IMG/VR virus record: IMGVR_UViG_3300044815_000135
Coordinates: 1-63,072 of that record
DNA length: 63,072 nucleotides
Source: a virus
Reading direction: 5' to 3' (one strand)
The position numbers were made by a program, and so were the translations under genes. This document shows, piece by piece, positions 1,641 to 61,924 of this stretch. How positions within the stretch are numbered: position 1 is the stretch's first letter; every line of letters begins with the position of its first letter. The notes under the pieces were generated by a model that was given only the letters and a program-made list of their open reading frames with translations, had not been told where the DNA came from and searched no databases.

Positions 1641-2090
1641 TTATGAACAGGTCTTAGGTCCACCGAGCATTTCTGCCAGGCGATCAAATTCTTCACAATA
1701 GTTATTCTCTTTTGCGAGAAGTTCAGCATCTGCCCAAAACTGAGCAAGTCGAATGTCAGAACCAGTAATCTGCTCCACACCATTGCGAGTAGCGCGCTGA
1801 AGCCAAGATTTAACCAATAGCCGTTTCCCAGTAGGTCGTTTGTTGCGTTCAACTATGAGGAAAATGGTAATGGCCTTAGTACGTTCTTCATCATAGTAAA
1901 TTGGATTACTCTCCACCTCTCGATAAGAACCATGTATACTACTCCATGCTCTTCTAGTAGGTTTGGAGCCGAGGAGTTCAATTGGTGCATGGTCAGAAAC
2001 TTCACCTGGAGCTTGGTCAAACCACTTGATGAAAGCCTTACTCTCGACAATGTCAAATTGAGCCTGTCGCTGGGGGATTGTTAATGCCAT
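1641..2090 (-). CDS. hypothetical phage protein
   Basis: 149 residues, not recognised. It has a strong AAGGAG seven bases before its ATG and is the first gene downstream (on this strand) of the gene-free structured block at 2.1-2.7 kb. The centre contains a basic stretch (ERNKRPTGKRLLVKSWLQR). Soluble, with no membrane segment or metal motif. Confidence 0.8.
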   Translation of the reverse strand: MALTIPQRQAQFDIVESKAFIKWFDQAPGEVSDHAPIELLGSKPTRRAWSSIHGSYREVESNPIYYDEERTKAITIFLIVERNKRPTGKRLLVKSWLQRATRNGVEQITGSDIRLAQFWADAELLAKENNYCEEFDRLAEMLGGPKTCS

Positions 2091-2099
2091 TTTATCTCC

Positions 2100-2692
2100 T
2101 TAGTAGGTAAATTAATTACTGGGCAATGCTATCACCAAAGAATAATGGTGCTAAGGTTCTCTTTCTACACACTCCAAACCCCATACTGCCCGGTGGAACT
2201 CTAAGGAGCGGGAGTATGGGGTTCAGTAGGTTCCGCCTTATTCATTTCCTCCTGGGGGGTAGCCTATTAGTGGCTATGGGAGGGTAACTTCCTCGGCGTG
2301 ATTTCGTTACAATACAAGGCTATCAGCTAAGTTTAATGAGGTCAAGGCTCCCCTACACAGTCATAATGCCCGCTTCACTGGATTACCCATTGCTTCTGAC
2401 CCGTTTATAAGCGGGCGATCACTTTTGGCAGTTCATGACGGGCATTACTAAGGTTCGCAATAGTTCTACCAGGGTTAGCTTTACCTCTAAACCTCAGTCC
2501 TGGCTATAGATACGGCGGAGCAAATCACTCTCCTATGCATCTCATACAAGCGGGGCTTTTTTACCCCTAGGTTTTAATACATAGACCCTAAACTAGGCTC
2601 ACCCGATGAAGTTTACAGACCTTTTCTCACTAGTTGGGCATCTTCAACTCTGTAAGGGGACAATGAGCAACCCCATCGCTTAGCCTCAGCGA
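2100..2692 (-). ncRNA. candidate large structured noncoding RNA
   Basis: About 590 bases without a plausible ORF on either strand but with many complementary segments. Examples are AACCCCATACT at 2177-2187 with its complement at 2213-2223 (11 bp, extended by CCG/CGG); TAATGCCCG at 2364-2372 with CGGGCATTA at 2439-2447; CCAGG/CCTGG at 2469-2473/2499-2503; GGGG/CCCC at 2552-2555/2564-2567; and TCGCT/AGCGA at 2676-2680/2688-2692. The strand is inferred from the flanking genes. Size, ornate folding and phage location recall the GOLLD and ROOL RNA classes; no homology is shown. Confidence 0.5.
2177..2223. other. long imperfect hairpin within the structured block
   Basis: An 11-bp perfect arm (AACCCCATACT with its complement) is continued inward by CCG/CGG after a C mismatch, giving a roughly 47-base stem-loop. 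There is no T-run on either side, so a simple intrinsic terminator is unlikely. It is probably the 3' domain of the candidate RNA at 2.1-2.7 kb. Confidence 0.7.
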
Positions 2693-2944
2693 CTAAATAA
2701 TGCTATCATTTGGGTTTACGGGACCCAAATTGCCTTTTTCAAGTTGTACAACTGGTATATCTACAATGCAGGGACATTTTGGACAGTTATATTGATACCC
2801 GGCAGGTGAAAGATTTTGAATATTCTCGTGATTAGTACTTGTTGTTACTGTCGCCTCAAATTTTAAGTCTTGGGGAATAATAACATAGGGAATACCCTCA
2901 TTCATCAGACTTTCGCATGAGGGGCATTTTAGTCGGATTGTCAT
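2693..2944 (-). CDS. zinc-ribbon protein
   Basis: 83 residues with two cysteine pairs, CPSC (residues 8-11) and CPKCPC (around 54-59), spaced as in a small zinc ribbon. The ATG overlaps the upstream stop (TGATG). The stop is immediately followed by the first hairpin of the gene-free block. Likely nucleic-acid or protein binding; partner unknown. Confidence 0.75.
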   Translation of the reverse strand: MTIRLKCPSCESLMNEGIPYVIIPQDLKFEATVTTSTNHENIQNLSPAGYQYNCPKCPCIVDIPVVQLEKGNLGPVNPNDSII

Positions 2945-3159
2945 CAGAATGTCTCATTAATATCGGAGTACATAGCCTCTTCTTCTAGTTTTGCTTGGCG
3001 CTGGGCATCCGCTTCGTACGCATTCATGAGCGACCAGTAAGCAACAGTCCCATGATGTTTTGACTTTATGTGGTTGTTTAATCTCACCACGCTGGCAAAT
3101 TGCTTCTGGCAGTAAATACAGAAACTATCATCTGGGTCATTAGTGTTATGAATCTGCAT
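2944..3159 (-). CDS. C2H2 zinc-finger protein
   Basis: 71 residues. CIYCQKQFASVVRLNNHIKS followed by KHH is a classical C-x2-C-x12-H-x4-H finger at residues 14-34, followed by an acidic helical tail. C2H2 fingers are infrequent in bacteria but recur in actinobacterial phages. Starts two bases after the upstream micro-gene. Confidence 0.8.
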   Translation of the reverse strand: MQIHNTNDPDDSFCIYCQKQFASVVRLNNHIKSKHHGTVAYWSLMNAYEADAQRQAKLEEEAMYSDINETF

Positions 3160-3161
3160 GG

Positions 3162-3290
3162 CTATTTCAACTGCCCAGAAAGAGCTGCTATGGATAGAAA
3201 GGCAAACAAACTAATGGGAAAGCTAGCTATGCAGAGCCAAAAAGCTGTACAAGGGTTCATACCATGTTTGTGAATTACAATCTTACTCAT
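3162..3290 (-). CDS. 42-residue membrane micro-protein
   Basis: MSKIVIHKHGMNPCTAFWLC, then a hydrophobic segment (SFPISLFAFLSIAAL). The ATG overlaps the stop of the upstream gene (AATGAGTAA) and the stop lies two bases before the next ATG. These couplings, not similarity, support it as real. One predicted transmembrane helix. Confidence 0.65.
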   Translation of the reverse strand: MSKIVIHKHGMNPCTAFWLCIASFPISLFAFLSIAALSGQLK

Positions 3291-3678
3291 TACCCTGGTC
3301 CTCTTTCTCTTGTCGTAGATCTACCTGGCGAGCAACTTGCCATAGAGCTGCAGCCGAGATGTGTGGACCAAAGATACGTCGACCTTTCCACTTAAATGTC
3401 TCGCGGGCTTCATGCTCCCAGTACCCCTTATAGAGACTGAAGATAGTCTGTATCAGTTCAGAATCGCTAGCGTGAGGTGATAAATAGGCTTTGCCTCCAT
3501 AACCAGTACCCCATTCTCCAGTAATGACATCCTGTCGCCAGAATGCTATCTGATAGTAAAAACGGCCGCCTAGCACTTCCTTATCTTGACCGATTTGGAT
3601 GGAGAAGTTATGAGCTAGTTCAATATCTGCTGCAATGTACTCTAATCGAGTTTTAAAACCTATTTGTGTAGTCACCAT
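3283..3678 (-). CDS. hypothetical phage protein
   Basis: 131 residues, mixed composition with many aromatics (FYYQIAFWRQDVITGEWGTGYGGKAY) suggesting a beta-rich fold, then a helical charged C-terminus (RQVDLRQEKEDQ). Family not recognised. Overlaps the following micro-gene by eight bases. Confidence 0.75.
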   Translation of the reverse strand: MVTTQIGFKTRLEYIAADIELAHNFSIQIGQDKEVLGGRFYYQIAFWRQDVITGEWGTGYGGKAYLSPHASDSELIQTIFSLYKGYWEHEARETFKWKGRRIFGPHISAAALWQVARQVDLRQEKEDQGNE

Positions 3679-5646: not shown

Positions 5647-5652
5647 GCTAAC

Positions 5653-6337: not shown

Positions 6338-6373
6338 CTCCCACACCCAAATGGGCTGAGACACGCTCCTATG

Positions 6374-10376: not shown

Positions 10377-10700
10377 CTATGAGTAAACTCTCAATATAGC
10401 TGTTCGGGGATAATTATCTAACTCTTGCACCAAACCTCTTGACCATTCAAGACATTGCATGAGATTACCCCAATTCTCGACCTCAAACTGTTGAAAATAC
10501 TTAGGCTGTCTATTCCATTCTCCACAAATATCACTGAGAACGAGAGCCACATCCCACACAGGCAGGTCATTGAGGTCTTTTAGTTTGATGCCCACCCATT
10601 TATGAGATTGTTTCATAAGGCGATCAATGTTATAGGTGATATTGTTATGACGCAGCTCTCTCAGAGGTAGCTTATGCTCAATGTGTAAGTCATAGCTCAT
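10377..10700 (-). CDS. hypothetical phage protein
   Basis: 107 residues, MSYDLHIEHKLPLRELRHNN..., Trp-rich helical centre (DVALVLSDICGEWNRQPKYF). The start at 10700 overlaps the upstream stop by 11 bases; the frame's earlier ATG is deep inside that gene. Last gene of the 10.4-13 kb operon. Confidence 0.7.
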   Translation of the reverse strand: MSYDLHIEHKLPLRELRHNNITYNIDRLMKQSHKWVGIKLKDLNDLPVWDVALVLSDICGEWNRQPKYFQQFEVENWGNLMQCLEWSRGLVQELDNYPRTAILRVYS

Positions 10701-11373: not shown

Positions 11374-11720
11374 TATTTCTTAAACCAACCTACTATATCC
11401 ATTCGACCATGACCTTCATGGTGATACCGTCTATGTTGACCTACATGTTCCGCAAGGCTCTGAGCCCCCGGAAAAAACTTACCGCAAGCGCACTGGAAGG
11501 TGTGGAGATTAGTGCATAGAAATTGCCAGTGATGCCAATGTCTGCTCTTCCATCTCTCATATATTTCATCTCTTGTGCCCGAATATCCCGGTCCTCGTCG
11601 ACCACAAATGATACATTCAACACTTCGGCTTTTAGTCCCATTATCAGGGTAGATAAAAAGAATATCTTCGTTGGGGAACCATAGTTGAATCATCAGATCT
11701 TTGATGCTCAATGATATCAT
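11373..11720 (-). CDS. zinc-finger protein with C-terminal C2H2 finger
   Basis: 115 residues. A CIICGRRGPGYSG segment (around 36-48) supplies one Cys pair, and FQCACGKFFPGAQSLAEHVG plus QHRRYHH is a C2H2-type finger near residues 74-100. Starts in an ATGA overlap. Likely nucleic-acid binding. Confidence 0.75.
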   Translation of the reverse strand: MISLSIKDLMIQLWFPNEDILFIYPDNGTKSRSVECIICGRRGPGYSGTRDEIYERWKSRHWHHWQFLCTNLHTFQCACGKFFPGAQSLAEHVGQHRRYHHEGHGRMDIVGWFKK

Positions 11721-12133: not shown

Positions 12134-12438
12134 TAATCAGACCCCCTGTTATCATGGAACTTCTTCAGCATAAAGTTTCGGGTATCTCTACATAACTGCC
12201 CTTTGATAGCCCCGCATGTAGGACAGGTAAAATTCTTGGGATTGGGAATCTTCCTGGCTTGAATCTCTTCAAGTTTAATCTTAGAAGGTTGCTTAATTTC
12301 CACACCCGCAGCAACCAAAATTTCAGCGATATGTCTAGCCGGGTCAATCACCATCATCTTACAGCTAGAACACCACCGTCGATCATTACAACGATGTGGC
12401 TCGATCAGCTTAGTGAGAGTATCTTCGCGAGCACTCAT
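12133..12438 (-). CDS. two-site zinc-binding protein
   Basis: 101 residues. HRCNDRRWCSSCKMM near residues 15-28 and CPTCGAIKGQLC near 71-82, followed by a basic segment and FHDNRG. The second motif (CPxCGAxxGxxC...H) is a recurrent phage zinc-finger module. Role unknown. Confidence 0.75.
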   Translation of the reverse strand: MSAREDTLTKLIEPHRCNDRRWCSSCKMMVIDPARHIAEILVAAGVEIKQPSKIKLEEIQARKIPNPKNFTCPTCGAIKGQLCRDTRNFMLKKFHDNRGSD

Positions 12439-13044: not shown

Positions 13045-15156
13045 TTAACCACTGTATTCCTTTCCTGAGGGGAGATTCCAGATATTGGAGCCCCCTGTCA
13101 TTACCGTTCGTTGTACTTTACCTAAATCAAGTAGTTTAGTCATACGTTTGTGAATAGTTGATCGATTTACCTTTAATACCTCCGATAACTGAGCGGTACT
13201 TAAACCTGTTGAACCTTCTCGAAGAGCATCAATTATGGGATCGGGTCGATCATTAGCCTTTCTACGCCTGGATGGTGTGGAAGATTGCCCAAATCCTCTG
13301 CCTTCAGTTTCAGCTCCATCGGCAGCTTCATTTTCATCTGTTCTCCATGGTCTAATTTGGGGAGTCCATGCCAGGTTATGGATATCAGTCATTCGATACG
13401 TTTGAGCAGGTACCGTTTTACTCTCCAAGTCAATTCGTATGTCCTTAATACCTGAACGACTGAGGTATATCGAGTCTTCGGCCCAAGCATGGTTTGCGAC
13501 GGCCCCAAGCATTCGTTGACCAGGGCGGCTTTTCTCGGATTTGCCCATGTGATGGATGACAATAACTGCAGCATTGTGCTTCCTTGATAGTACCTTAAGT
13601 GGACGGAATATCTTATTGGTCATTTCTTGACTTCGGTTTTCATCGACTTCACCAGCAGTCATCATGAGCGTATCAATAATTATAAGACGATATGGCTCGC
13701 CGTCCATACCAGCTGCTAACGTTTCATCAAGCCAGAGTTGCCAAGCCTCATTAGATATTACAAAGCCTTGCTGGATGTAAGCATTGATTTCTGGATCGAA
13801 TTGAGCATCTTGTTCGGGGGGTAACCAATAAAGACCGGCTTCATCTGGTGTATGTATAAGCTCGAACTTGTCAGTACTCTTATTTACCCAGACTTTTGCT
13901 GATCTATTCTTTAGGGTAGTAGGAGGATCTTCCTCCTGAATATAAAGAACGGGGCCCGGATTCTGAACGCGAAAGTTACCCAAAAAGTCCGCCCCTGTCG
14001 CGACTGAGAGAGCAAGATCCAAACCGACCCAGGACTTATAGGTTTTAGGCTCACCTGCGATGAAGCCACATGCACCCTCAGTGAGAATACCTTGAACGAG
14101 ATACTTAGGCTTTTTGATGTTCTTGAGTAAGAAACCCAATCTTTGTGGTGAGGGACGCTCAAGCTCTTCATCTTCTAATTCCTCATCTAATTTATTGGTG
14201 GTTTCTTCAGATCGCTTAGCAATGGCCTTAGAAGCTTCAGTAATAAGCCGCCGGAGCTCGTCGTGACGATCACGAAATTTATTCCATACTGTTTCTCGTA
14301 CAACCGCAACAATTTCCGCCGTGGATAATCCAACATCGGCAAGACAGCGAATAAGGTACCAGAGTTGGTCAGATTTGTCGCCGCTAGCCTCTCTCGCAGA
14401 TAAGAGTTCACGGGCTCTATGGTTGAGTTTGAGTTTAATCCGAGCAATTACTGCTAACCTATCTACTGAATCAATATCTGAGGAGAGAGCTTCAGTTAAC
14501 TCATTATCCACACCCATCTGAACTTCAGGTAGGTCAGCGAAATCTCCGGGACTATATCGAGGTCCATCAGTCCAGAGTATTTTGCCTTCTGGATAAGTAC
14601 CATCAGTTTTTCTGTACTCGGGTTTATGATTGGGTAATCCAGGTACTCTTAGAAGTTGAACTGTATCCCATCCTGAGGCATCTGCCCCAATTAGATAGGT
14701 CATTTTCTGGTTTTCCTTACCAGGCCATGATGCTCCTAGAAAATCCCCCATTTGAGCCACCCATAGGGCTTGATATCTGCCTGGACTAGATTCCCATGCG
14801 ATACTGGGAGGATAATCATCAAGAGTACTAGGGTCAACTGCATCTAAGTCTGCCCATAAAGCATGCTCAGTCATAGCAGTATTCTCATCACGCATGGGAT
14901 ATTCAAACAGTGATGTTGTCCAATAAACATCGTGCTCAAATTTCTCATTACTATGATGTATAATATGTTCTACTATCTTATCCCTATCACGAGGCCATAC
15001 AAAAGAGGGACCTTCGTTAAATCCAGTGCGCCGCTTACCAGTTAATCTTTGCTTTTTACGATCAATGTAGGGAAAAAAGACGTAGCCCATTTGCTTACGT
15101 CCCCATGCTTGGCTGATTAGTTGTAGTGACTTTTCAACCTCTAGTTTTGATACCAC
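13045..15156 (-). CDS. primase-helicase replication protein with C-terminal winged helix
   Basis: 703 residues. The N-terminal ~200 residues (ALWADLDAVDP, IAWESSPGRYQALW) match RepB/AEP-type primases, with the Asp pair as the likely metal site. A helical linker leads to a RecA-fold ATPase with Walker A GEPKTYKS (about 367-374), Walker B RLIIIDTLMM and a VIHHMGKS segment, as in RepA-like hexameric helicases. The last ~60 residues (GLSTAQLSEVLKVNRSTIHK) are a winged helix. Probably primes and unwinds at the phage origin. It heads the operon running left to 10.4 kb. Confidence 0.85.
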   Translation of the reverse strand: MVSKLEVEKSLQLISQAWGRKQMGYVFFPYIDRKKQRLTGKRRTGFNEGPSFVWPRDRDKIVEHIIHHSNEKFEHDVYWTTSLFEYPMRDENTAMTEHALWADLDAVDPSTLDDYPPSIAWESSPGRYQALWVAQMGDFLGASWPGKENQKMTYLIGADASGWDTVQLLRVPGLPNHKPEYRKTDGTYPEGKILWTDGPRYSPGDFADLPEVQMGVDNELTEALSSDIDSVDRLAVIARIKLKLNHRARELLSAREASGDKSDQLWYLIRCLADVGLSTAEIVAVVRETVWNKFRDRHDELRRLITEASKAIAKRSEETTNKLDEELEDEELERPSPQRLGFLLKNIKKPKYLVQGILTEGACGFIAGEPKTYKSWVGLDLALSVATGADFLGNFRVQNPGPVLYIQEEDPPTTLKNRSAKVWVNKSTDKFELIHTPDEAGLYWLPPEQDAQFDPEINAYIQQGFVISNEAWQLWLDETLAAGMDGEPYRLIIIDTLMMTAGEVDENRSQEMTNKIFRPLKVLSRKHNAAVIVIHHMGKSEKSRPGQRMLGAVANHAWAEDSIYLSRSGIKDIRIDLESKTVPAQTYRMTDIHNLAWTPQIRPWRTDENEAADGAETEGRGFGQSSTPSRRRKANDRPDPIIDALREGSTGLSTAQLSEVLKVNRSTIHKRMTKLLDLGKVQRTVMTGGSNIWNLPSGKEYSG

Positions 15157-16652: not shown

Positions 16653-17297
16653 ATGGCGCTGTTTACAAAAGGCGAGTTGGCCAAGAAGGAAATCGTCGAA
16701 CTCAAGAAGTTGGCTAAGGCCAATGCCATCGATCCGGCCGGCTTGTCTAAGGCAGAGCTCATTGAGCTGCTGCTAGAGATCGAGGATGAGCCAGAACTCG
16801 AGGAAGATATCGAGGAGGAACTCGATGATGAAGATGTTGAGCTCGAGGATGAAGAGCTTGATGAAGAGGAAGATGAGGTAGCTCCTCCTAAGAAGGGAGC
16901 CAAGAAGTCTTCCACACCCGCAACTGCTGCAAAGTCAAAAAAGGATGCGTCCGCCGGCGATACCCTCGCGGCAAAGCAGGTTGCAACCCTCCTCGGTACT
17001 GAAGCCAAGACGCTTCGACAGTTCTTGCGAAGTGATGCCAGCACCTTCGAAGCAGTCGGCTCAGGGGGTCGATATGAGTTCACTGAGGGCGACGTTGCCA
17101 AGATTCAAAAAGAATTCGAAGCTTGGCGATCCGCTCATGCTGCTCGAGGTTCTAAGCGAGGCCCCAACGGCAAGAAGGCCGCAGTTGAGGCTGAAGAGCT
17201 CGAGGAAGTTGAAGAAATCGAGGAGCTGGAAGAGCTCGACGATGAAATCGACGAGGAAGAGCTAGAGCTTGAAGATGAGGATGAAGAAGAGGAGTAA
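16653..17297 (+). CDS. Lsr2/histone-like DNA-binding protein with SAP-like N-terminus (copy 2)
   Basis: 214 residues in four parts: an N-terminal SAP/Rho-N-like helical motif (KKEIVELKKLAKANAIDPAG followed by LSKAELIELLLEIE, residues 12-45); an acidic linker and Lys/Ala segment (46-105); a core (about 108-160) with LGTEAKTLRQFLRS and GSGGRYEF, paralogous to the 8.5-kb protein; and a ~45-residue Glu/Asp tail. The acidic tail could control DNA affinity or mimic DNA. It has its own promoter and AAGGAG. Probably a phage nucleoid or silencing protein. Confidence 0.8.
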   Translation: MALFTKGELAKKEIVELKKLAKANAIDPAGLSKAELIELLLEIEDEPELEEDIEEELDDEDVELEDEELDEEEDEVAPPKKGAKKSSTPATAAKSKKDASAGDTLAAKQVATLLGTEAKTLRQFLRSDASTFEAVGSGGRYEFTEGDVAKIQKEFEAWRSAHAARGSKRGPNGKKAAVEAEELEEVEEIEELEELDDEIDEEELELEDEDEEEE

Positions 17298-18414: not shown

Positions 18415-18449
18415 GATCCCCTCCTTTCGTATGGTGTGGAATCATTGTT

Positions 18450-42978: not shown

Positions 42979-43176
42979 TTATTCCTTTCTTGTGAGAGGT
43001 TCTTTAAACCTCTTAGTTTCTATTACCTGCCCAGTTTCCAGAGACAGGGTGTGGAGAACAACTACCTCAGGAGTTGATCCGCACTTCCGTCGATGACATT
43101 TAACTTCTATGGTACCTTTAGCATCTACTGATGCAATACCATATAAATCACCAGCGCAACGAAGTTCAGTTGTCAT
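42979..43176 (-). CDS. small zinc-binding protein
   Basis: 65 residues: MTTELRCAGDLYGIASVDAK, then EVKCHRRKCG and a beta hairpin (VVVLHTLSLETG). The C...C-x4-C layout recurs in small actinophage proteins within structural operons; role unknown, perhaps translational regulation like Mu Com. Confidence 0.75.
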   Translation of the reverse strand: MTTELRCAGDLYGIASVDAKGTIEVKCHRRKCGSTPEVVVLHTLSLETGQVIETKRFKEPLTRKE

Positions 43177-43300: not shown

Positions 43301-43618
43301 CTATTTGGTTGGAGAAGAATTCTTTACTGGGGCTTCTGGGACAATAGTCGGATTTTCAACTTCGAGTTCCTCCTCCTCCTGATCTTCCTCTTCTTGAGTA
43401 GTAGCTTTAGAAGATTCCTTTGGTTCCTTCTTACTAAGACGGAATTCACCGAAGATGTTATCAGGAGCAAGAAGAGCATCTGCCACCTTATCATCTACCT
43501 CTACAGCCTTTTTACGAGGGAAAAGAGTCTTTGTAAATCCTTCCACACCCGCCTTTGCAAGGTCAGCAGTGGTAAGCTCACGGACATCGGCAAACCCAGT
43601 GTAAACTACTTTCTTCAT
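43301..43618 (-). CDS. structural-operon protein with acidic tail
   Basis: 105 residues: globular N-terminal ~60 (VVYTGFADVRELTTADLAKA...), then Ser/Glu-rich disordered tail. Similar in layout to the 45.1-kb protein. Sits between the tail terminator and the small zinc protein; may be a head-tail joining or decoration factor. Confidence 0.65.
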   Translation of the reverse strand: MKKVVYTGFADVRELTTADLAKAGVEGFTKTLFPRKKAVEVDDKVADALLAPDNIFGEFRLSKKEPKESSKATTQEEEDQEEEELEVENPTIVPEAPVKNSSPTK

Positions 43619-45147: not shown

Positions 45148-45600
45148 TTATTCCTCAGTAATATCAGCTTCAGCTTCAAGAGCATCAGCCTCAATCAGAG
45201 CAGCACGAACTTCACTAGCCTTCTTCATGCCAGTTGTGTCCACACCCCGCTGGGTGGCAAGAGCCTTAAGTTCTGGACCAGCAAGTTCACTGTAGTCTCT
45301 AACTTCGACCTCTTCAGCCTCTTCATCTTCTTCGACTTCTTCTTCGACCTCTTCATCGGCTTCTGCTTCATCATCGGTCTCGTCGTCGCTTAGTTCCTCT
45401 TCATCAGCAATTGCCTCAGGTTCGGGGGTTGGAGCGACTGCAGGCTTCTTTACGGCCTTCTTAGGCTGAGCCTTTGGGGCATCGTCAGCAAGTCCAGCAG
45501 CAGCGAGAGTTTGTCGTGCCAAGAAGACTGGATCATTACTGATGATGTTTCCACGAGAGTCTTCAAAAACAACGGGTTCGTAATCTTTGGTCTTAGCCAT
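45148..45600 (-). CDS. capsid-associated protein with acidic linker and SAP-like C-terminus
   Basis: 150 residues: short N-terminal domain (YEPVVFEDSRGNIISNDPVF), Lys/Pro then Glu-rich linker (60-105), and a C-terminal helix-extended-helix (YSELAGPELKALATQRGVDT) resembling a SAP/Rho-N motif like that of the 16.6-kb protein. Follows the major capsid gene. Possibly binds DNA or capsid; unproven. Confidence 0.65.
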   Translation of the reverse strand: MAKTKDYEPVVFEDSRGNIISNDPVFLARQTLAAAGLADDAPKAQPKKAVKKPAVAPTPEPEAIADEEELSDDETDDEAEADEEVEEEVEEDEEAEEVEVRDYSELAGPELKALATQRGVDTTGMKKASEVRAALIEADALEAEADITEE

Positions 45601-47465: not shown

Positions 47466-47513
47466 TTGCTTTACCTTTCTGGTGTGGAAGTTGATTTAAC
47501 TGGTGGTTATCAT

Positions 47514-48231: not shown

Positions 48232-49827
48232 TTATTTCGAAGCATCCCGCTTCTTGTTTATTGCCTCAGTACCTGAACTTTCATTCGGCCGAGACTTGTT
48301 ATTACTACCGTTTTTTGATCCTGGTAGTGTATCTCCGTTAGCGTCCCCGCCTTCAGAATCCTTTGTAGCTAAGAAAGCGGCTCTCGCAGCCTCAGTTGCT
48401 TTCTTGGTCTCTTCGTCGAGCTGGTCCTGAATATTCTCAGGAAACTTGTAACCCAATTTCTCCATCTCAGAGCGGTAATATGCTCCAGGAATTAACTTTC
48501 TATCCAACATATTGTTGAGTTCATTTACTCGAGCAATTCGATCAGTTGGGAGCTTATCCCCAATTACTGGAACAATATCACCTTCTAGTTGTTCTTGCTC
48601 AAAAATAGCATGCCATGTCTTCCAATCAAAGAACAATTGAGTGAGAATGTCAATTCCCGCCTGGTCTCTTGTTTCAATCTTTGCAAGTGTTGGTATGAAC
48701 TTAATAGCAAGTGCTATACCCGACTGAGCTACCTGAGCATCAATTTTACCAAGTGCAACATCTGAAAGACCAGCTGCCTGGTTCGCCTTATCTTCAAGGT
48801 ATTTGATTTGATCTACAGCAGGAGTGATAGATCCCACACCCTCAACTCGGCGGAAATAGGAACCCTGAGGAACTTCCATCACCTTTCCAGGAGATACTTC
48901 CCATTCAGTTTCTGCTCCCTCTGAATCTACTGGACGACCTCCATCAGTTGCATATACTCCAAGGCCTTCCAGAGAAAGGGAAGCAGAAACATCAGTAGCT
49001 GCTTGAGAAACAACTTCAATCAGCCGTTCAATACCTCGAAGCTCTGATGAACCATAATCCTCACCCTGCCAACTACGGTTTTTAAACCAATAGATTGGAA
49101 TAGTTGTAATATCCTCATGCAAATACCCGAGCGGAATGGTGGTTTGAATTAACTTGGCTTTCTCACCAAATCCAAACCCATTAGTACCAAGTTCATAAAT
49201 TGCCTCTTGACGACTAATGCGCTTCTTACCATTAACCTCTTCAATTCTATACGTTAGTCGACGAAGACGAGTCTTCTGTTCAGGATCTTTTTCAATTGGG
49301 AGAGTATATTGAGTTGCAAGACTACAACCCACTAATTTACCTGGTTCATCATCATCCCAAATGGGGAAGACATTCATTGGCTCTACAGCGTTAAGAGAAA
49401 TTCGACTTCCCTTTTTCTTCTTGGGATTGGCCGTTAGATGAAAGAGGAAATCACCTCGAGCAACGCCAGTTTGCTTAGCTGCATGGAATCGGGAGTAAAA
49501 AGTCTCTCTCTTTAGAAAAGCATCTAAAGCTCGCTTAGTAGGATTAGTTTTATCCTCCGGCTTTATTCCATCTACGATGATTTGAAGCCCCTTAAGCAAG
49601 TAGTGAGAGGTAGTATCAACTACCGTACGAGCATTGGGAATGTAAATGGGGGATTCTCCCTCAAGTACACGTAAAGCAAATTGACGAGGATCATTCCAAT
49701 ACATCTCATCATATTTGATGTAAGCGGCAATTCGATCTCTATCATCTGGGGGCATCCAAGTCATCGCCGTAACTAATGACCCTATTAGGGGCTTAACGGT
49801 AGACCACTGGTTATAATCTTCACTCAT
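48232..49827 (-). CDS. portal protein
   Basis: 531 residues directly after the large terminase. YIPNARTVVDTTSHYLLKGL, GVARGDFLFHLTANPKKKKG, YWFKNRSWQGEDYGSSELRG, PQGSYFRRVEGVGSI and QAAGLSDVALGKI reproduce the SPP1-gp6/actinophage portal family. The C-terminal ~60 residues are disordered. Forms the dodecameric DNA entry vertex. Confidence 0.95.
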   Translation of the reverse strand: MSEDYNQWSTVKPLIGSLVTAMTWMPPDDRDRIAAYIKYDEMYWNDPRQFALRVLEGESPIYIPNARTVVDTTSHYLLKGLQIIVDGIKPEDKTNPTKRALDAFLKRETFYSRFHAAKQTGVARGDFLFHLTANPKKKKGSRISLNAVEPMNVFPIWDDDEPGKLVGCSLATQYTLPIEKDPEQKTRLRRLTYRIEEVNGKKRISRQEAIYELGTNGFGFGEKAKLIQTTIPLGYLHEDITTIPIYWFKNRSWQGEDYGSSELRGIERLIEVVSQAATDVSASLSLEGLGVYATDGGRPVDSEGAETEWEVSPGKVMEVPQGSYFRRVEGVGSITPAVDQIKYLEDKANQAAGLSDVALGKIDAQVAQSGIALAIKFIPTLAKIETRDQAGIDILTQLFFDWKTWHAIFEQEQLEGDIVPVIGDKLPTDRIARVNELNNMLDRKLIPGAYYRSEMEKLGYKFPENIQDQLDEETKKATEAARAAFLATKDSEGGDANGDTLPGSKNGSNNKSRPNESSGTEAINKKRDASK

Positions 49828-51218
49828 GCTGCACGTCTCCTAACGCCTATTCTACTTTGTCGACTATGTCGATTACCTGCAGTAGAGAACTGCTCCATAT
49901 GACCCTTGAAGAATCGTCCTAGTGCCTCAGGTCCATGGTTATCAACATCCATCGGAATTTCACTAATATTTCTCATGTCATTATGCGACTCTGGCCATCT
50001 GTAGCCTTCTCGCATTTCCCAGATAAGACGAGTACATGACTTATCTATCCGAAGCTGTGCCACCTTTTCTGGATGGTCGTCTGGAAGATGTTCGGGACGT
50101 CGTTTCAAAGCCGAACGAATCAGCTGAAGACGAAGCTTAATTTCACCACCAGTATTCGCCTTAGTACTAATATTTAAGTGTCGTCTGAGGATTGCTGCAT
50201 CATCTGGGGATGATGGGTCTACATAGATAGCAAGGCATTTGCTCATTAAGGGATGATGCTTTAGCTCATTTCGAGCAATGTCCTCAGTATCACGAAGTCG
50301 GAATCGATGTTCACCAATAACGTAGATATTGTGATTCATAGGATCTTCTTGAATCCAAAGCCAAACCCAGTCATTGGTATAACCGAAGTCTACTGCCCCA
50401 TAGAGAGGCCAATCATAGTTGTAGTTAAATGTGCCAATGTGGTAATCATCATCCCATTCCTTCATTACGCGACCGCGCTTGAGGATGAATTCACCACCAT
50501 ATTGCCGACGGAATTCATCCTCCGTTAGATCATCTTCAGCATCTAAGATTTCAGGATCATTACGTCCACCTGGGAATACTGTGGTATTAGTCCATGAGGG
50601 GAGTTGCCAAGATTTCCACTGAGGATTATTTGCTTTACCTTTTAAGTAACCCCAGTAAAGAAGATTAGTATCATTAGCATCTTCAGGAACTCCTGACATC
50701 ATACTAATACCACGCTTATCCGATAATGCAGGTCGTACATACTCGGTAAAAGTTTTACGTTTATGTCGACCAGCTTCAGATAAAAGCACGAAATCCAGAC
50801 CTTCACCAACCAAGCTTTCTGGATGCCGAGCAGATCGACATTGAAGATCAAAGCCCCAGTTGGTGGCAATGTGCATGTTGCCATTCTCTGTATTATTTAA
50901 GAATTTACTAGAGATGGTATCAATGCCAAGCTTTTTGAATGTATCATAAACAATACGGAACTCTTTCTCCGCATCAGGGTATTCTGGCCCAATAATCCAG
51001 CCTCGCATTGGCTGCCCAAGATAGTTACGCACAAAAGCCATGCATTCCATCTCTTTACCACCAAAAAGAGACTTGCCCCACCGTCGCCCATTGCTAAGAA
51101 CACGATGTCGAGTATTGTCATAATGCACAAGTGACTGCCCCGGGTGTGGAGTGTAATCTGTAGCTTCAAACCACTTGTCTTTACGAAAAAGTTTGCCTTC
51201 TCCCGGCATTACTAGCAT
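49824..51218 (-). CDS. terL: terminase large subunit
   Basis: 464 residues from the ATG preceded by AAAGGAGTTGCC. Walker A GRRWGKS (44-50), Walker B DFVLLSEAG (142-150, with Glu at the catalytic position), coupling region MMSGVPED, and the RNase H-like nuclease with AVDFGYTND (about 275-283) and YVDPSSPDD. Packages DNA together with the small subunit encoded at 54.7 kb. Confidence 0.95.
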   Translation of the reverse strand: MLVMPGEGKLFRKDKWFEATDYTPHPGQSLVHYDNTRHRVLSNGRRWGKSLFGGKEMECMAFVRNYLGQPMRGWIIGPEYPDAEKEFRIVYDTFKKLGIDTISSKFLNNTENGNMHIATNWGFDLQCRSARHPESLVGEGLDFVLLSEAGRHKRKTFTEYVRPALSDKRGISMMSGVPEDANDTNLLYWGYLKGKANNPQWKSWQLPSWTNTTVFPGGRNDPEILDAEDDLTEDEFRRQYGGEFILKRGRVMKEWDDDYHIGTFNYNYDWPLYGAVDFGYTNDWVWLWIQEDPMNHNIYVIGEHRFRLRDTEDIARNELKHHPLMSKCLAIYVDPSSPDDAAILRRHLNISTKANTGGEIKLRLQLIRSALKRRPEHLPDDHPEKVAQLRIDKSCTRLIWEMREGYRWPESHNDMRNISEIPMDVDNHGPEALGRFFKGHMEQFSTAGNRHSRQSRIGVRRRAA

Positions 51219-51350: not shown

Positions 51351-51629
51351 TTAGATCTTGGTTTCCTTGTAGCGATTAGCATTATCTCTAATGATACGTT
51401 GAGCTCGTTCAACTTGCTCGGGAGTTGGTTTAGGTACTTCATTGGGATCAAAGCGAACTACTCCTTGCCAATATCCAGGATCAACTGGCATATGACTATC
51501 CTCAGTTTGCCCTGTAGTTGAAAGTAGTCGAAGCTTGTCCGAAGCAGATAAGGCATCATTACCCTTGGGAAATACCCCGTTGGGCATAGGTCCTGCTCCA
51601 CCATATTCTGATTGTTCCACACCAGCCAT
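51351..51629 (-). CDS. small hypothetical protein
   Basis: 92 residues: Gly/Pro-rich start (EYGGAGPMPNGVFPKGNDAL), then PDPGYWQG-like centre and a C-terminal helix (PTPEQVERAQRIIRDNANRY). Lies between holin and terL; a small conserved actinophage protein in this place is common, function unknown. Confidence 0.7.
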   Translation of the reverse strand: MAGVEQSEYGGAGPMPNGVFPKGNDALSASDKLRLLSTTGQTEDSHMPVDPGYWQGVVRFDPNEVPKPTPEQVERAQRIIRDNANRYKETKI

Positions 51630-54031: not shown

Positions 54032-54119
54032 ATCATAACTCCTGTAATGGCCTTTCACTCGATGGTGTGGGAATATAACCCAAAGTATGAGCTCATCATA
54101 TCATTGACCAGAGAATTAC

Positions 54120-54452: not shown

Positions 54453-54720
54453 TACCACCACCAAAAATATACTTAAGGTCATCTTCTTGTAAGACATTGG
54501 CACTAATTAAGCGTTCTACTAAACGCATAAGGGGACCAAGTAAAGGATCACGAACCACTTGCTGAACCATCGGATTAGGGGCTTGATTACGTGGATCTGG
54601 CCCAGGCTTTAGAGGAATTAATTCTCCCTCTATTGAGAACTTATGATTCTTATCTCCATGGTTCTCACGGATTTCATCACATACTCCACACCTATCATCC
54701 GGGGAAAGCGGCTCAGTCAT
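54388..54720 (-). CDS. hypothetical protein with CGVC start
   Basis: 110 residues: DRCGVCDEIRENHGDKNHKF has two Cys and two His (possible zinc site), then a Pro-rich middle and a helix (PLLGPLMRLVERLISANVLQ). Overlaps the JAMM frame by 65 bases. Recurrent in actinophage terminase regions; function unknown. Confidence 0.65.
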   Translation of the reverse strand: MTEPLSPDDRCGVCDEIRENHGDKNHKFSIEGELIPLKPGPDPRNQAPNPMVQQVVRDPLLGPLMRLVERLISANVLQEDDLKYIFGGGNETDRGQTPRRSEENNPPTGA

Positions 54721-58087: not shown

Positions 58088-58848
58088 TAGGGGGCTATCC
58101 TTCCATGCTCATTGAACTTGGTTAATGAAATGGGAAATAGCTGAGTCAGAATTTCTTCTACCTTCTTAGCAGCTAGTACAATTTCATACTGAGGTCGACC
58201 TTTATTGGTGGCATTTTCTTCAGCAGTACGAAGACCTAAGAAATGCAACCATGCTCGAAGATTAGCAGTAGCATACATAGTTGAGTTAATTGCTACTGGG
58301 AGATGAAGTCGAGCCATCTCATTAGCAATACCCATATTTAAAGCCTTTTGATACAAAGCCCATGACTGCTCATACCCCCAGATAAGATCCTCAACAAATT
58401 GGGTGTGGAGAATTATATCAGCAGGACCCATTACTGGTCTAGCACTAGTACCAATGTTAATAAGAGGCCTATTAGCTTCAGGGATATAAAAATTGGGAGT
58501 GAACTGGGTATATCGTCCAGATTGCTCATTGTAAGACTGAACTCGGTGACGATGCCACTCACGGAAAACCATAATGGGCGCAGTTACTCGAAATGTAATG
58601 GAGTTATGCTCAAAAGGGGTACCATGGCGTTCACTCATAAGATAGTTGATAAGGCCAGCACTTTCACCTTCTCCAAACTGAGTAGCATCAACTACTTCAC
58701 CAGTACTTACTCGAGCAGCATGAACAACCCCTGCATCATTACCCATATGTTGAATGAGTTCTACCCTTACACCTTCATGAAGTGTAATGTCATTGTGCTG
58801 ACGAATCACTTGATTGCCTCCTTGGCAGTATAGGTCTTGTACATCCAT
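58087..58848 (-). CDS. thyX: flavin-dependent thymidylate synthase
   Basis: 253 residues. The ThyX signature RHRVQSYNEQSGRY (from residue 100) is complete, with HGTPFEHNSITFRV before it and LHFLGLRTAEENA after it. Makes dTMP from dUMP using FAD and methylenetetrahydrofolate. Common in actinobacteria and their phages. Present in addition to a ThyA-fold enzyme at 25.6 kb. Overlaps the upstream gene by 43 bases, so a later start is possible. Confidence 0.95.
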   Translation of the reverse strand: MDVQDLYCQGGNQVIRQHNDITLHEGVRVELIQHMGNDAGVVHAARVSTGEVVDATQFGEGESAGLINYLMSERHGTPFEHNSITFRVTAPIMVFREWHRHRVQSYNEQSGRYTQFTPNFYIPEANRPLINIGTSARPVMGPADIILHTQFVEDLIWGYEQSWALYQKALNMGIANEMARLHLPVAINSTMYATANLRAWLHFLGLRTAEENATNKGRPQYEIVLAAKKVEEILTQLFPISLTKFNEHGRIAP

Positions 58849-59285
58849 GCTTTATGCTTCCACACCCATCGACGAAATTTGCCTCGCGGGATTCTTTTTA
58901 ATAGGGGATATAGCTTGGTATGCTTACTAAGGATATAGAATGTAAGACCCCAATCTTCACTAAAAGCTTGAGGATTACGAAGATTTTGCCATAGCCTTAA
59001 GTCGCCGGCAAATTTAGGATCTACTCTACTCCATTCAATGGGGTCGTTAGTTAGAGGAGAAAGGGGCTTATACTGAAGAAGTTGAGAAACCATATTTAGT
59101 GTTTGATTGGCTGATTCTCCAGAATGGCCCTGTTTACTAAATACAGTAACTAGTTCCATAACTCGCTTACGAAGTTCAGCATCCCAATGAGCTGATGGAT
59201 CTTTACTTCTAAGTTGGTCTCTGGTAAGCTGGGGAAAACCTATCAAATCTAGTTCTCTGTTAGCATGGTCGATCAAATTTGACAT
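58806..59285 (-). CDS. conserved-looking phage protein
   Basis: 159 residues. Central WQNLRNPQAFSEDWGLTFYI resembles the W.N.RN..AFSEDGG.TYY pattern of an uncharacterised phage family often near ThyX; basic aromatic C-terminus (RRWVWKHKAWMYKTY). Function unknown. Confidence 0.75.
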   Translation of the reverse strand: MSNLIDHANRELDLIGFPQLTRDQLRSKDPSAHWDAELRKRVMELVTVFSKQGHSGESANQTLNMVSQLLQYKPLSPLTNDPIEWSRVDPKFAGDLRLWQNLRNPQAFSEDWGLTFYILSKHTKLYPLLKRIPRGKFRRWVWKHKAWMYKTYTAKEAIK

Positions 59286-60248: not shown

Positions 60249-61466
60249 TTAGACGAAAATTCGCTTACGAAGGAAGAGGGCTGCAAGACCAAGGAACAGA
60301 ATTCCTGAGCCCGTAAGGCCATTGCGAATGTATACTACTAGCTCATCACCTGTACAGGCAAGGGTTGTAGCAGTTCCGCACTTATCGCTAGGCGGCGGAG
60401 GCGGTAGCTTGCAATCCTCTTCCGCATCCTTAGCAGCGATTTCTTCTGGTGTCAGGATTCGAGGTTCACCAATTTCAGGCTCACTCTCAGTAGTTTCCTC
60501 ATTGACTGACCCATCCTCATTGTTTGAGTAATGGGTGTGCCAAACCTGACGGGTTTGTGAAACGGTGGTGTCATCGCAACCATATTCGCCATCTGTCCAT
60601 TCACCATAGGTGTCATAGTCTTCAGGCAAGTCGCAATTAACTGCTGTCCAAGTGACCGAGGTGAATGGGAACGTTGCTGTTCCATTACCATTGTCAACCC
60701 ATCCAGTAGGCAGAACTCCCCATCCATCGCCACCGATTCGGGTGGCAATAATGTCAAGTTCATCACGTGCATAGGTAACATTCTCAGTATTGACTGGCAG
60801 ACCAAAGTGGTCGTCAGCTACAGCGCACTTATCCTTCTGACCGGGGTCAGTGGGAATCACCAGAATGGGATCGACGCAATCTGGACCAGTAAGTAGGACC
60901 AGCTTGTATGCTTCCCCCCAGCCGCCACCCCAAAGAGCTTCGGCAGGATTGCCTGGGCCATAGAGTGAACCACCCGCGATTGCATCACGGACAGGCTGGG
61001 TATCGAAGTTGCCATCCACCTGGAACTGAACTGAGGTTTCACAAGTTAAGTTAGCCTCAATCTCGGCAAGAGCCGCATCAAGCGCACTAAGGTTCTTAGT
61101 AGCACTGTCAGCTGTCAATGGAGGCATGAGCCCCGCAGCAACACCTTGCGGCCAGGTTGGAGTTGTTGGTCCGGCCCAGCTGGGCATTGGCCATCCAATT
61201 ACCACAAAGGGCATTGGATCAACTGGAGGTTCCTCGACTACATTCTTCGCGAGACATTCCGCCTCGGTTAGTCCGAATACATCGGCATCATGATGCTTAT
61301 GACCGTTATAGCCATTCGCATCAGGTGTGATATATGTCCAGTGATTCCCATCTCCACTGTGACAAGCGGGCAACTCGGCTTCTGATGCCATGGCTGGTGA
61401 GACATTAAATCCTACCAACCCCAGCACAAGAATACCAGCAGCAACACCTGCAGGATATCGCTTCAT
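60249..61466 (-). CDS. secreted cell-wall-anchored protein with LAXTG sorting signal
   Basis: 405 residues. Signal peptide (MKRYPAGVAAGILVLGLVGF..., cleavage after AMA at ~27). The exported part has paired Cys (PACHSGDGNHWTYITPDANG; TEAECLAKN) and a His-rich HKHHDAD. Near the end a Pro-rich spacer is followed by LACTG (369-373), a hydrophobic helix (GILFLGLAALFL) and RKR: the tripartite signal recognised by class E sortases of actinobacteria. The phage would display this protein on its host's wall. Promoter 61519-61547; GGGAGAAG ribosome-binding site. Confidence 0.85.
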   Translation of the reverse strand: MKRYPAGVAAGILVLGLVGFNVSPAMASEAELPACHSGDGNHWTYITPDANGYNGHKHHDADVFGLTEAECLAKNVVEEPPVDPMPFVVIGWPMPSWAGPTTPTWPQGVAAGLMPPLTADSATKNLSALDAALAEIEANLTCETSVQFQVDGNFDTQPVRDAIAGGSLYGPGNPAEALWGGGWGEAYKLVLLTGPDCVDPILVIPTDPGQKDKCAVADDHFGLPVNTENVTYARDELDIIATRIGGDGWGVLPTGWVDNGNGTATFPFTSVTWTAVNCDLPEDYDTYGEWTDGEYGCDDTTVSQTRQVWHTHYSNNEDGSVNEETTESEPEIGEPRILTPEEIAAKDAEEDCKLPPPPPSDKCGTATTLACTGDELVVYIRNGLTGSGILFLGLAALFLRKRIFV

Positions 61467-61518
61467 ATTCTTCTCCCTGTAGAGTTATCAACACCAGCTC
61501 AATTGCTGATGCATAAGC

Positions 61519-61547
61519 ATGCTATCGACATAGGCAATAGTTGTCAA
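61519..61547 (-). promoter_or_regulatory. promoter TTGACA-N17-TAGCAT
   Basis: -35 at 61542-61547, -10 at 61519-61524, preceded by TTGCC as in most promoters of this phage. Leaves a ~45-base leader for the LAXTG protein. Confidence 0.75.
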
Positions 61548-61559
61548 GGCAATTATACT

Positions 61560-61763
61560 CTACAGTTCCCACCAAGGCTTAGCTTCTTTAGGTGTGGAAA
61601 AATCAAAATTATGCTTGGCTTCTCGCCAAGTCCCATCTGGGTTCATATGCCGACGGATAAAATGGGATACATACTTTACTCGAGTTTTCAAGGCTAATCC
61701 GCAGTAAGTACATTTGACTTTATTCCCTCGAATTATATACTCTGGAGCTGGTACTTTAATCAT
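61560..61763 (-). CDS. C2H2 zinc-finger protein
   Basis: 67 residues from MIKVPAPE. KCTYCGLALKTRVKYVSHFI then RRHM is C-x2-C-x12-H-x4-H; the tail is Trp-rich (EAKPWWEL). ATGA coupling with the upstream gene. Confidence 0.8.
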   Translation of the reverse strand: MIKVPAPEYIIRGNKVKCTYCGLALKTRVKYVSHFIRRHMNPDGTWREAKHNFDFSTPKEAKPWWEL

Positions 61764-61909
61764 CCCCAATCTCCAGTATACCAATAAGCTACCTCAATTG
61801 AATCTGGAAATTGGTTATATCGTTCCAACATCTGACTTGCTACATCTGCCTCATGAGGCGCGGAAGCAATACGACGCGTCCCATCAGGTAGAGTAGCAAT
61901 GAACAACAT
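61760..61909 (-). CDS. 49-residue hypothetical protein
   Basis: MLFIATLPDGTRRIASAPHE..., ending EVAYWYTGDWG; beta-alpha-beta pattern. GGTGTGGA serves as a weak ribosome-binding site; the stop is coupled to the next ATG. Confidence 0.7.
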   Translation of the reverse strand: MLFIATLPDGTRRIASAPHEADVASQMLERYNQFPDSIEVAYWYTGDWG

Positions 61910-61924
61910 TCCACACCAATCAGG

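Follow-up and report, generated by a model that had tools for sequence, protein, structure and literature searches.

Why should one octamer, GGTGTGGA, recur throughout this viral DNA, and which protein might read it? The window, by which we mean the whole stretch of 63,072 nt analysed here, contains 29 exact copies of the word, 13 on the + and 16 on the - strand, compared to 1.4, 0.7, 1.0 and 3.0 copies expected on both strands under Markov models of order 1, 2, 3 and 4, respectively.

Abundance, spacing and conservation of the word

GGTGTGGA ranks first among all 8-mers of the window (Markov order 3) and has the same rank in each of the six complete close relatives included in the count. The reversed word, used as a control, occurs five times. 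When synonymous codons were shuffled within the ORF-predicted genes, 200 shuffles gave a mean of 7.4 and a maximum of 13 copies. The copies lie in sense frames 0 (9) and 2 (3), in antisense frames 0, 1 and 2 (5, 4 and 3) and in intergenic or partial positions (5). The initial annotation had reported 29 copies, approximately half in each orientation and in all reading frames; these counts confirm the abundance and the use of several frames, and the excess holds against the Markov and codon-adjusted backgrounds and in relatives. Its positions were exact for 28 of the 29 copies, the site given as 20097 lying at 20087. The gap that it described at 2-11 kb exists for the exact word but is partly filled by the variants TGTGTGGA (3360), GGTGTGGG (6340) and TGTGTGGG (10553).

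These variants belong to a fuller motif, KGTGTGGR, which occurs 39 times in the window (16 times on one strand and 23 on the other, mostly as GGTGTGGA; Table 1) and 24-70 times per genome or contig. GGTGTGGG was observed 102 times (11.9 expected) and TGTGTGGA 16 times (4.6 expected), while TGTGTGGG is the weakest form of the motif.

Table 1 Sites of the KGTGTGGR motif in the window and genes of candidate readers.
Feature	Position	Strand	Remark
GGTGTGGA site	1774..1781	-	
TGTGTGGA variant site	3360..3367	+	
GGTGTGGG variant site	6340..6347	-	
TGTGTGGG variant site	10553..10560	-	weakest form
GGTGTGGA site	11499..11506	+	
GGTGTGGA site	12299..12306	-	
Predicted RepB'-type AEP primase + RepA-type helicase fusion	13045..15156	-	proposed reader; Pfam, AF2, PDB matches
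GGTGTGGA site	13274..13281	+	
GGTGTGGA site	14507..14514	-	kept in 0/9 aligned relatives
GGTGTGGA site	16911..16918	-	
GGTGTGGA site	18433..18440	+	
AAA ATPase	19426-20223		candidate rival reader
GGTGTGGA site	19959..19966	+	
GGTGTGGA site	20087..20094	-	kept in 6/8 aligned relatives
Cas4-like nuclease	20223-21344		candidate rival reader
GGTGTGGA site	22050..22057	-	
GGTGTGGG variant site	23876..23883	+	
GGTGTGGA site	25202..25209	-	
GGTGTGGA site	26742..26749	+	kept in 4/7 aligned relatives
TGTGTGGG variant site	28062..28069	-	weakest form
Second helicase	28582-30111		candidate rival reader
GGTGTGGA site	29756..29763	+	left half of 142-b convergent pair
GGTGTGGA site	29898..29905	-	right half of 142-b convergent pair
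GGTGTGGA site	31468..31475	-	
GGTGTGGA site	34011..34018	+	
GGTGTGGG variant site	35187..35194	-	
GGTGTGGG variant site	36452..36459	-	
GGTGTGGA site	38472..38479	+	
GGTGTGGA site	38777..38784	-	
GGTGTGGG variant site	41330..41337	-	
GGTGTGGA site	43048..43055	+	kept in 4/7 aligned relatives
GGTGTGGA site	43542..43549	-	
GGTGTGGA site	45239..45246	-	
GGTGTGGA site	47481..47488	+	
GGTGTGGG variant site	48833..48840	-	motif kept in 5/8 aligned relatives
GGTGTGGA site	51143..51150	+	motif kept in 8/8 aligned relatives
GGTGTGGA site	51616..51623	-	
GGTGTGGG variant site	54064..54071	+	
GGTGTGGA site	54685..54692	-	
GGTGTGGA site	58402..58409	+	
GGTGTGGA site	58859..58866	-	
GGTGTGGA site	61591..61598	+	
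GGTGTGGA site	61910..61917	-	

The sites are evenly spaced on each strand. None of the 37 same-strand gaps in the window is shorter than 600 b (6.4 expected), and pooled over 11 genomes (n=581, median 1931 b) 88% of such gaps measure 1-6 kb, compared to 55% in random placements. Gaps below 600 b were scarcer than random (p<0.05) in 23 of 25 genomes, the signal being weak in Lebethron (p 0.04) and short of significance in G002 (p 0.11) and G023 (p 0.51). The variants respect the same exclusion: only 1% of GGTGTGGG copies lie within 600 b of an exact site on the same strand (31% in random placements), as do none of the 16 TGTGTGGA copies. Between strands, convergent pairs no more than 300 b apart are in excess (60 observed, 41.6 expected) and divergent ones rare (17 observed, 41.7 expected); some opposite-strand sites are 26-32 b apart, and the 142-b convergent pair is common to seven of seven whole genomes. 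Furthermore, in 48 of 90 aligned site comparisons the relative has the motif at the homologous position, compared to 4-9% for ordinary identical 8-mers, and the flanks of the aligned sites show only average identity. Enrichment in relatives and conservation of the sites mark GGTGTGGA as a functional DNA word and as the product of neither codon bias nor chance.

With regard to gene direction, top-strand sites persist in the leftward-gene block of Muddy (8 top, 2 bottom), whereas in the leftward-gene blocks of Teagan (11/12), Lebethron (21/16) and Azira (6/10) the top/bottom balance shifts toward the bottom strand, so that a strand bias tied to gene direction found mixed support and was set aside. 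UGA recoding, considered on account of a tca tRNA, produced no obvious genome-wide merging of main genes when TGA was read as W.

Word variants across phages and host-family DNA

Phages of Microbacterium, Gordonia, Mycobacterium and Pseudomonas with a homologue of the protein encoded at 13045-15156 also have the GTGTGG core, and the bases 3' of this core track the primase clade, even within one host strain. At primase-domain identities of at least about 50%, GGTGTGGA was enriched 23-fold in 26 of 26 loci and GTGTGGCC 1.0-fold; in the clade at 25-30% identity, GTGTGGCC was enriched 10.8-fold in 17 of 17 loci and GGTGTGGA 1.0-fold. This comparison comprised 67 of 92 loci, those below 13 kb having been dropped, and at least 17 of the 67 are pieces of genomes counted elsewhere (for example L164 = G005, L206 = Muddy, L253 = Teagan). 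Most IMG/VR records are fragments with shared ancestry, and the genomes are not independent. The clade words are GGTGTGGR, GGTGTGGNC and GTGTGGCC; Triscuit and Teagan, which share the isolation host M. foliorum NRRL B-24224 SEA, carry the first and the last of these, respectively.

Some phages and loci showed no excess of the core. This holds for L212 and L214, with primases at 32-33% identity (7 observed, 9.6 expected; 4 observed, 6.9 expected), for the control phage D29 (29 observed, 26.8 expected), which has pol I, Cas4 and ThyX and in which primase genes 57/58 are annotated separately, and for the PrimPol cyanophage S-2L (25 observed, 22.1 expected, in 40.0 of 45.1 kb), which argues against a word general to other AEP phages. 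Only three loci were without a detected primase domain, one of them with 9 copies (3.9 expected). Zuko carries the word, and its primase match is remote (hhalign probability 47%; PHROG 1.2e-8). The scan of genome contigs gave at least one match, a Polynucleobacter MAG contig.

A comparison with host DNA had also been suggested: GGTGTGGA showed no strong excess in Curtobacterium plasmids (1.1-1.9-fold), a Microbacterium plasmid (2.4-fold) or Arthrobacter (1.6-fold), this host-family set consisting, for Microbacteriaceae, of plasmids and otherwise of Arthrobacter DNA (1.35 Mb; 200 kb in the enrichment-fold test). The excess is 19-39-fold in the window, Shrew and Triscuit. Several records entered in part, namely G007, G009, G012, G018 and G019 (first 60 or 40 kb), T5 (120 kb), phiC31 (40 kb), S-2L (40 kb), the Microbacterium plasmid (60 kb), two Curtobacterium plasmids and Arthrobacter (200 kb); in G006, G008, G010, G013, G015 and G017 the word was counted, and these stand outside the whole-genome set.

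A candidate primase-helicase and proposed primer-start sites

The protein encoded at 13045-15156 is predicted, from profile matches and a structural model, to be a RepB'-type AEP primase (residues ~1-212) joined by a helix bundle (~217-325) to a RepA-type helicase (~335-601) and a C-terminal winged HTH. Pfam reports PF16793 (5.9e-13; 49.5 bits, curated cut-off 24.3) and PF13481 (1.4e-30) and, at E<=1, no PriCT family; PDB 3h25/3h20 was matched by sequence profile (E 0.007). The catalytic DxD of motif I is present, D103 and D105 being invariant in 22 aligned proteins, and motif II (ESSPGRYQALW) carries Gln instead of His, Q129 being found in at least 90% of 20 aligned proteins. Such a replacement is described as a RepB'-type trait in the excerpts of PMC5862659 considered. 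The primase domain model (AF2, pLDDT 89.7) best matches the S-2L AEP (6zp9, Z 17.0, rmsd 2.7 over 177), and also matches RepB' (Z 15.5; 3h25 Z 15.2, rmsd 3.5 over 182). The helices at 217-325, where the template-reading C-terminal bundle (PriCT) of such primases would be expected, align with the pRN1 helix bundle (9rtj) over 100 residues at Z 7.7, a value that helix bundles can reach by chance, and RSF1010 RepA (1g8y) tops the list for the helicase domain, a RecA fold (Z 23.2, rmsd 2.7 over 219 residues). Members of PHROG 3123, to which no function is assigned, bear the label 'RecA-like DNA recombinase' in a number of GenBank phages.

Based on the observed array, this model and analogy with known enzymes, we consider it likely that the phage-encoded primase starts its primers at KGTGTGGR on the single-stranded template. 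The ring helicase half would open the DNA and expose a single strand, on which the primase half would read GTGG(R) and begin a primer there or just 5' of it, in the KGT part; the phage DNA polymerase I (22609-25137) would then extend it. With one site per ~1.5-4 kb on each strand, either strand could be made duplex in Okazaki-sized pieces, whichever the fork direction. A second same-strand site nearby would add nothing and drift away, and such loss of redundant neighbours would leave the remaining sites evenly spaced. Close convergent pairs (+ then -) may prime outward on both strands, as ssiA/ssiB of RSF1010 do. Binding and initiation by the primase at KGTGTGGR, the Okazaki role and this role of the pairs are the most likely interpretation of the array.

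Known systems offer partial parallels. According to the available excerpts, AEP primases use a template GTG, NrS-1 preferring GTGG/GTGA, with the first upstream base as its start (PMC8718748), GTG at nt31-33 of ssiA is the proposed primer start of RepB' (PMC4434180), and T7 Okazaki fragments measure ~3 kb (range ~1-6 kb), with a proposed 1-6 kb between active gp4 sites (PMC12839067). Like ssiA/ssiB, which lie on both strands, the phage sites occupy both strands, some in convergent pairs, and every one contains GTG within its GTGTGG core. Unlike in RSF1010, however, primase and helicase form one protein, and where RSF1010 has one site per strand with a hairpin just 5' of GTG (~40 nt in all), the phages have 24-70 short sites without hairpin excess: among 996 sites, upstream 30-mers averaged -5.30 kcal/mol compared to -4.98 for random ones (sd 2.89). 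For NrS-1 PrimPol and pRN1 ORF904, too, the template words are short and G/T-rich, with 5'-GTG(G/A) as the central element, and their fold resembles the phage model, as may their helix bundle (Z 7-8, for the bundle within the chance range); they also polymerise, in contrast to the phage enzyme as proposed, and for them the source excerpts mention no extended word arrayed at intervals across the genome. T7 gp4 likewise reads a G/T-rich template site, 5'-(G/T)2GTC, through a primase that is joined to a ring helicase but is of DnaG type. GTC occurs 504 times on the T7 lagging strand (excerpts of PMC12839067), so that spacing there is set by choice among many sites and not by a planted word.

Competing explanations and significance

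The primase is accompanied by other replication genes, so that clade tracking by itself does not distinguish it from them, and the word could instead serve another protein of the replication module for loading, nicking or recombination. The genes for the second helicase, the Cas4-like nuclease and the AAA ATPase accompany the primase in most relatives seen, a nicking endonuclease is a further candidate, and even per-strand spacing with convergent pairs would also fit a strand-specific loader or nickase. However, D29 lacks the word in spite of its pol I, Cas4 and ThyX, GTG(G/A) specificity is already known for characterised AEP primases (excerpts of PMC8718748), and nicks on opposite strands 26-32 b apart would endanger the duplex. 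Such a reader is therefore unlikely. A T5-style nick word, which we take to be the octamer GCGCGGTG, was dropped, as it has one copy in 120 of the 121.75 kb of T5.

We attach little credence to a Chi-like word that would either shield the phage DNA against a host RecBCD/AdnAB-type nuclease or attract this enzyme. Chi words are asymmetric, strand-dependent, G-rich octamers like GGTGTGGA, and a regular distribution over the two strands would be useful for protection, but the host-family plasmids and Arthrobacter DNA show no strong excess, the 3' flanks differ between two phages of one host strain, and an identical core occurs in a Pseudomonas phage. Very improbable is a restriction/modification enzyme needing convergent (head-to-head) sites: it would fit the excess of convergent over divergent pairs, yet phages usually lose such sites instead of gaining and conserving them, the per-strand spacing is left unexplained, and the word follows phage clade, not host; no methyltransferase was identified among the scanned proteins, which were part of the full set. 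A by-product of base composition or of codon and amino-acid usage, suggested by the nine sense frame 0 copies encoding Gly-Val-Glu/Asp, is refuted by the Markov, synonymous-shuffle, conservation and same-strand exclusion tests and by the use of both strands and several frames, and has practically no chance of being correct. Among the roles named in the initial annotation (Chi-like, uptake/packaging, nucleoid-protein, modification) none is favoured, and a primase start site was not among them, although its view of a functional word stands: packaging is disfavoured by the even spread of sites over both strands, and a minimum distance of about 0.6-1 kb between same-strand sites would not be expected of either a nucleoid-protein site or a modification target.

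In the usual picture, primases initiate at very common tri- to pentanucleotides, the sites used being picked from many. If KGTGTGGR is a primer-start site, long start sites have apparently been written by selection into coding DNA at fixed intervals. We lean, with some reserve, towards hard-wired starts of DNA synthesis in these phages, in which a conserved, extended primase word, spaced at Okazaki intervals on both strands and coevolving with a RepB'-RepA fusion replicase, would make fragment boundaries sequence-fixed and not stochastic. A description of such a word array was not found in the literature, for which open-licence full texts were considered. If true, the Okazaki spacing rule could be read from sequence, and PHROG 3123 would gain a function as a candidate primase-helicase. 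The clades would furthermore provide natural pairs of word (GGTGTGGR, GGTGTGGNC, GTGTGGCC) and enzyme for studying how AEP primases read DNA.

Over-representation of the octamer

The octamer GGTGTGGA occurs 29 times in the window, as the initial annotation had claimed, with 13 copies in forward and 16 in reverse orientation; among the positions it listed, a single one was wrong by ten (20087 instead of 20097). The both-strand expectation is 0.7-3.0 copies (Markov orders 1-4), and under order 3 the word ranks first among all 8-mers of the window. The excess also persisted after codon adjustment: 200 synonymous-codon shuffles of the predicted genes gave a mean of 7.4 and a maximum of 13 copies. 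Equivalent shuffles gave means of 15.6 for Curtobacterium phage Shrew (48 real copies) and 6.9 for Microbacterium phage Triscuit (30 real copies). The DNA polymerase I of the window, an IMG/VR virus record of 63,072 b, shares 72% identity with that of Shrew and 67% with those of Triscuit and Huwbert, the latter also a Microbacterium phage. Genes 1-10 of Shrew are repeated as genes 112-121. A published description of Triscuit calls it a lytic singleton and gives a direct terminal repeat of 3,795 b (PMC7302621). The enrichment extends to relatives: GGTGTGGA is the top 8-mer (order 3) in all seven whole genomes compared (window, the relatives G001-G004, Shrew and Triscuit), and in every one of 23 records, with totals of 10-55 copies each, it outnumbers the reversed-word control.

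The single-base neighbours of GGTGTGGA lead to the motif KGTGTGGR. GGTGTGGG (102 observed, 11.9 expected) and TGTGTGGA (16 observed, 4.6 expected) are enriched, GGTGTGGC and GGTGTGGT (0.5x) are not, and AGTGTGGA, GCTGTGGA and GGTGTGAA have almost no copies. In a set of 996 sites from 17 genomes, the motif begins with G (87%) or T (13%) and ends with A (65%) or G (35%).

Further features of the window were recorded alongside the word. The palindrome ATGCTAGCAT, with a double-strand count of 10 against 0.5 expected (order 5), may be an operator or a promoter element. The core of this palindrome, GCTAGC, has 14 copies in the window and 16 in the relative G005. The pair TGTCAAGG/CCTTGACA, which is the top word in the related loci L181 (21 copies) and L182 (18 copies), looks like -35 boxes. 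The tRNA with anticodon tca may be a suppressor that decodes UGA; the main window genes showed no clear recoding. Two thymidylate-synthase-like genes hint at altered pyrimidine metabolism or base modification.

Features of the window with their coordinates
Feature	Position	Remarks
Primase-helicase gene	13045-15156(-)	product of 703 residues
GGTGTGGA site	51143	conserved in 8/8 relatives aligned
Palindrome ATGCTAGCAT	6326, 6896, 8258, 23789, 32285	5 copies; the one at 6896 adjoins -35-like CCTTGACA
TGTCAAGG/CCTTGACA	4627-8990, 16567, 32270, 41948, 57405, 61542	12 copies vs 1.7 expected; clustered in early region
tRNA, anticodon tca	56818-56891	74 nt, which is short for the tRNA-SeC that ARAGORN calls
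tRNA-Leu(taa)		beside the tca tRNA
Thymidylate-synthase-like genes	25575-26489, 58087-58848	PF00303; PHROG 85

Spacing, strand and conservation of the sites

Sites of the same orientation avoid each other, while those of opposite orientation can be close. For the exact word, the coefficient of variation of the gaps was below random in all 14 strand sets of the seven genomes, not every set being significant alone; for KGTGTGGR, 13 of the 14 sets reached p<0.005, the exception being the minus strand of G002. Same-strand gaps below 600 b were rarer than random (p<0.05) in 23 of 25 genomes, with the clade's own shorter word used for the phages Azira, Muddy, Teagan, Lebethron and Zuko; the depletion was not significant in G002 (p 0.11) and the relative G023 (p 0.51). 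The 581 same-strand gaps pooled from 11 genomes had a median of 1,931 b, and 88% of them measured 1-6 kb compared to 55% under random placement. With one strand shifted as the control, convergent pairs within 300 b were more frequent than expected (60 vs 41.6) and divergent pairs less frequent (17 vs 41.7), although these counts are non-independent owing to shared ancestry. The strand of the sites partly tracks the orientation of the genes in Teagan, Lebethron and Azira; Muddy does not show this. In the whole Muddy genome (L116), KGTGTGG lies 39 times on the top and 17 times on the bottom strand, and the leftward-gene block 28851-40427 is still top-biased (8 vs 2); this bias may reflect a mainly one-directional fork.

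In nucleotide alignments of the window with nine relatives, the motif was kept at 48 of 90 aligned sites (10/13, 6/11, 9/12, 4/9, 7/12, 3/10, 3/8, 4/9 and 2/6 per relative). Since ordinary 8-mers were identical in only 4-9% of cases and the site flanks were conserved at the average rate, the word itself must be under selection as DNA sequence.

The word, the host and the primase-helicase

A word of host origin is disfavoured: relative to order 2, GGTGTGGA reached 39x in the window, 31x in Shrew and 19x in Triscuit. The corresponding values in the host-family DNA covered were 1.1-1.9x for three Curtobacterium plasmids, 2.4x for one plasmid of Microbacterium and 1.6x for 200 kb of Arthrobacter. 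Triscuit and Teagan were isolated on the same host, M. foliorum NRRL B-24224 SEA, and carry 30/22/3 and 4/2/41 copies of GGTGTGGA/GGTGTGGG/GTGTGGCC, respectively, which argues that the host does not set the word. In the Microbacterium proteolyticum plasmid NZ_CP121273.1, sites repeat exactly 68,106 b apart, a distance equal to half the record length; the record may therefore be a head-to-tail dimer or an assembly duplicate.

The primase-helicase combines RepB_primase (PF16793) and AAA_25 domains with a C-terminal winged-helix signal under the Pfam cut-offs, and matches PHROG 3123, whose function is listed as unknown. Modelled with AlphaFold2 (pLDDT 89.7), residues 1-326 resemble the AEP domain of cyanophage S-2L (Z 17.0, rmsd 2.7 over 177) and RSF1010 RepB' (3h25, Z 15.2, rmsd 3.5 over 182; 3h20, Z 15.5 over 259 residues, with an rmsd of 16.0 across two hinged domains). 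Residues 335-601 match RSF1010 RepA best (Z 23.2, rmsd 2.7 over 219). A Gln in motif II, said to mark RepB'-like enzymes (PMC5862659), occupies position 129 in 90% or more of the 20 proteins aligned. The PHROG 3123 members Muddy gp54, Teagan gp34 and Triscuit gp94 are RepB'-type primase and RepA-type helicase fusions; their current labels are unknown function, 'RecA-like DNA recombinase' or 'DNA recombinase'.

The window primase was matched by tblastn in 23 of 25 genomes, the exceptions being G018 (40.0 of 42.7 kb covered) and Zuko, in whose gp68 a distant AEP match was seen (PHROG 3123 1.2e-8; hhalign probability 47%). Either GGTGTGG or GTGTGG ranks first or nearly first among the words of the Gordonia phage Azira, the Mycobacterium phage Muddy, the Microbacterium phage Teagan, the Pseudomonas phage Lebethron and the Streptomyces phage Zuko. 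The bases 3' of the core differ by clade: the second is C in 40 of 71 Azira sites and A in 40 of 71 Muddy sites, and both are mostly C in Teagan (47/67 and 44/67).

We compared 67 loci of at least 13 kb, out of 92 retrieved, by primase-domain identity to the window. At about 50% or more, GGTGTGGA was enriched 23x in 26 of 26 loci and GTGTGGCC 1.0x; at 25-30%, GTGTGGCC reached 10.8x in 17 of 17 loci and GGTGTGGA 1.0x. GTGTGG was enriched 2.75x at 38-48% (above 1.5x in 14/14) and 2.4x at 32-35% (above 1.5x in 5/7). The top words of locus L216 (IMGVR_UViG_3300010376_000014), CTGTGGCT, TGTGGCTG and TGTGGCTA with 16, 12 and 9 copies, are perhaps a further divergent form with the core TGTGGC.

The control phages T5, Min1, D3 and phiC31 showed GGTGTGGA at only 0-1.2x and no match to the window primase (local tblastn). 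D29, which has pol I, Cas4 and ThyX in common and primase genes 57/58 annotated separately from its helicase, had no word excess (GTGTGG 29 vs 26.8; GGTGTGGA 1 vs 2.0). Several observations, however, count against linking the word to the primase. L212 and L214 carry the primase at 32-33% identity yet show no word excess, nor does S-2L, the nearest fold match. Of the three loci in which no primase domain was detected, one has 9 copies of GTGTGG against 3.9 expected, and other replication genes accompany the primase.

A putative priming site

The AEP primases of plasmid pRN1 and phage NrS-1 are reported to recognise their template at 5'-GTG, with GTGG and GTGA as the best NrS-1 sites and synthesis starting at the first base upstream (PMC8718748); the proposed start at RSF1010 ssiA is likewise a GTG (PMC4434180). 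KGT-GTGG-R includes this element. The spacing of the array is on the same scale as T7 Okazaki fragments (mean ~3 kb, range ~1-6 kb) and as the proposed T7 primase sites, which a recent study found to lie 1-6 kb apart after clustering (PMC12839067). We therefore infer that the fused primase-helicase probably uses the word as its priming site.

The AEP primase, the RepA helicase and a GTG-based start are already known. In open-licence papers, we found no description of an extended start word, distributed evenly along both strands of entire phage genomes, that diverges together with its enzyme, and the main text of a 2020 survey including Triscuit contains neither GTGTGG nor CCACAC. The convergent pairs recall RSF1010 ssiA/ssiB; because the phage sites show no ssi hairpin and greatly outnumber those of RSF1010, the name ssi is not applied to them. 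The even spacing would stem from selection to keep one usable start every couple of kilobases along each strand, and the convergent pairs would prime outward.
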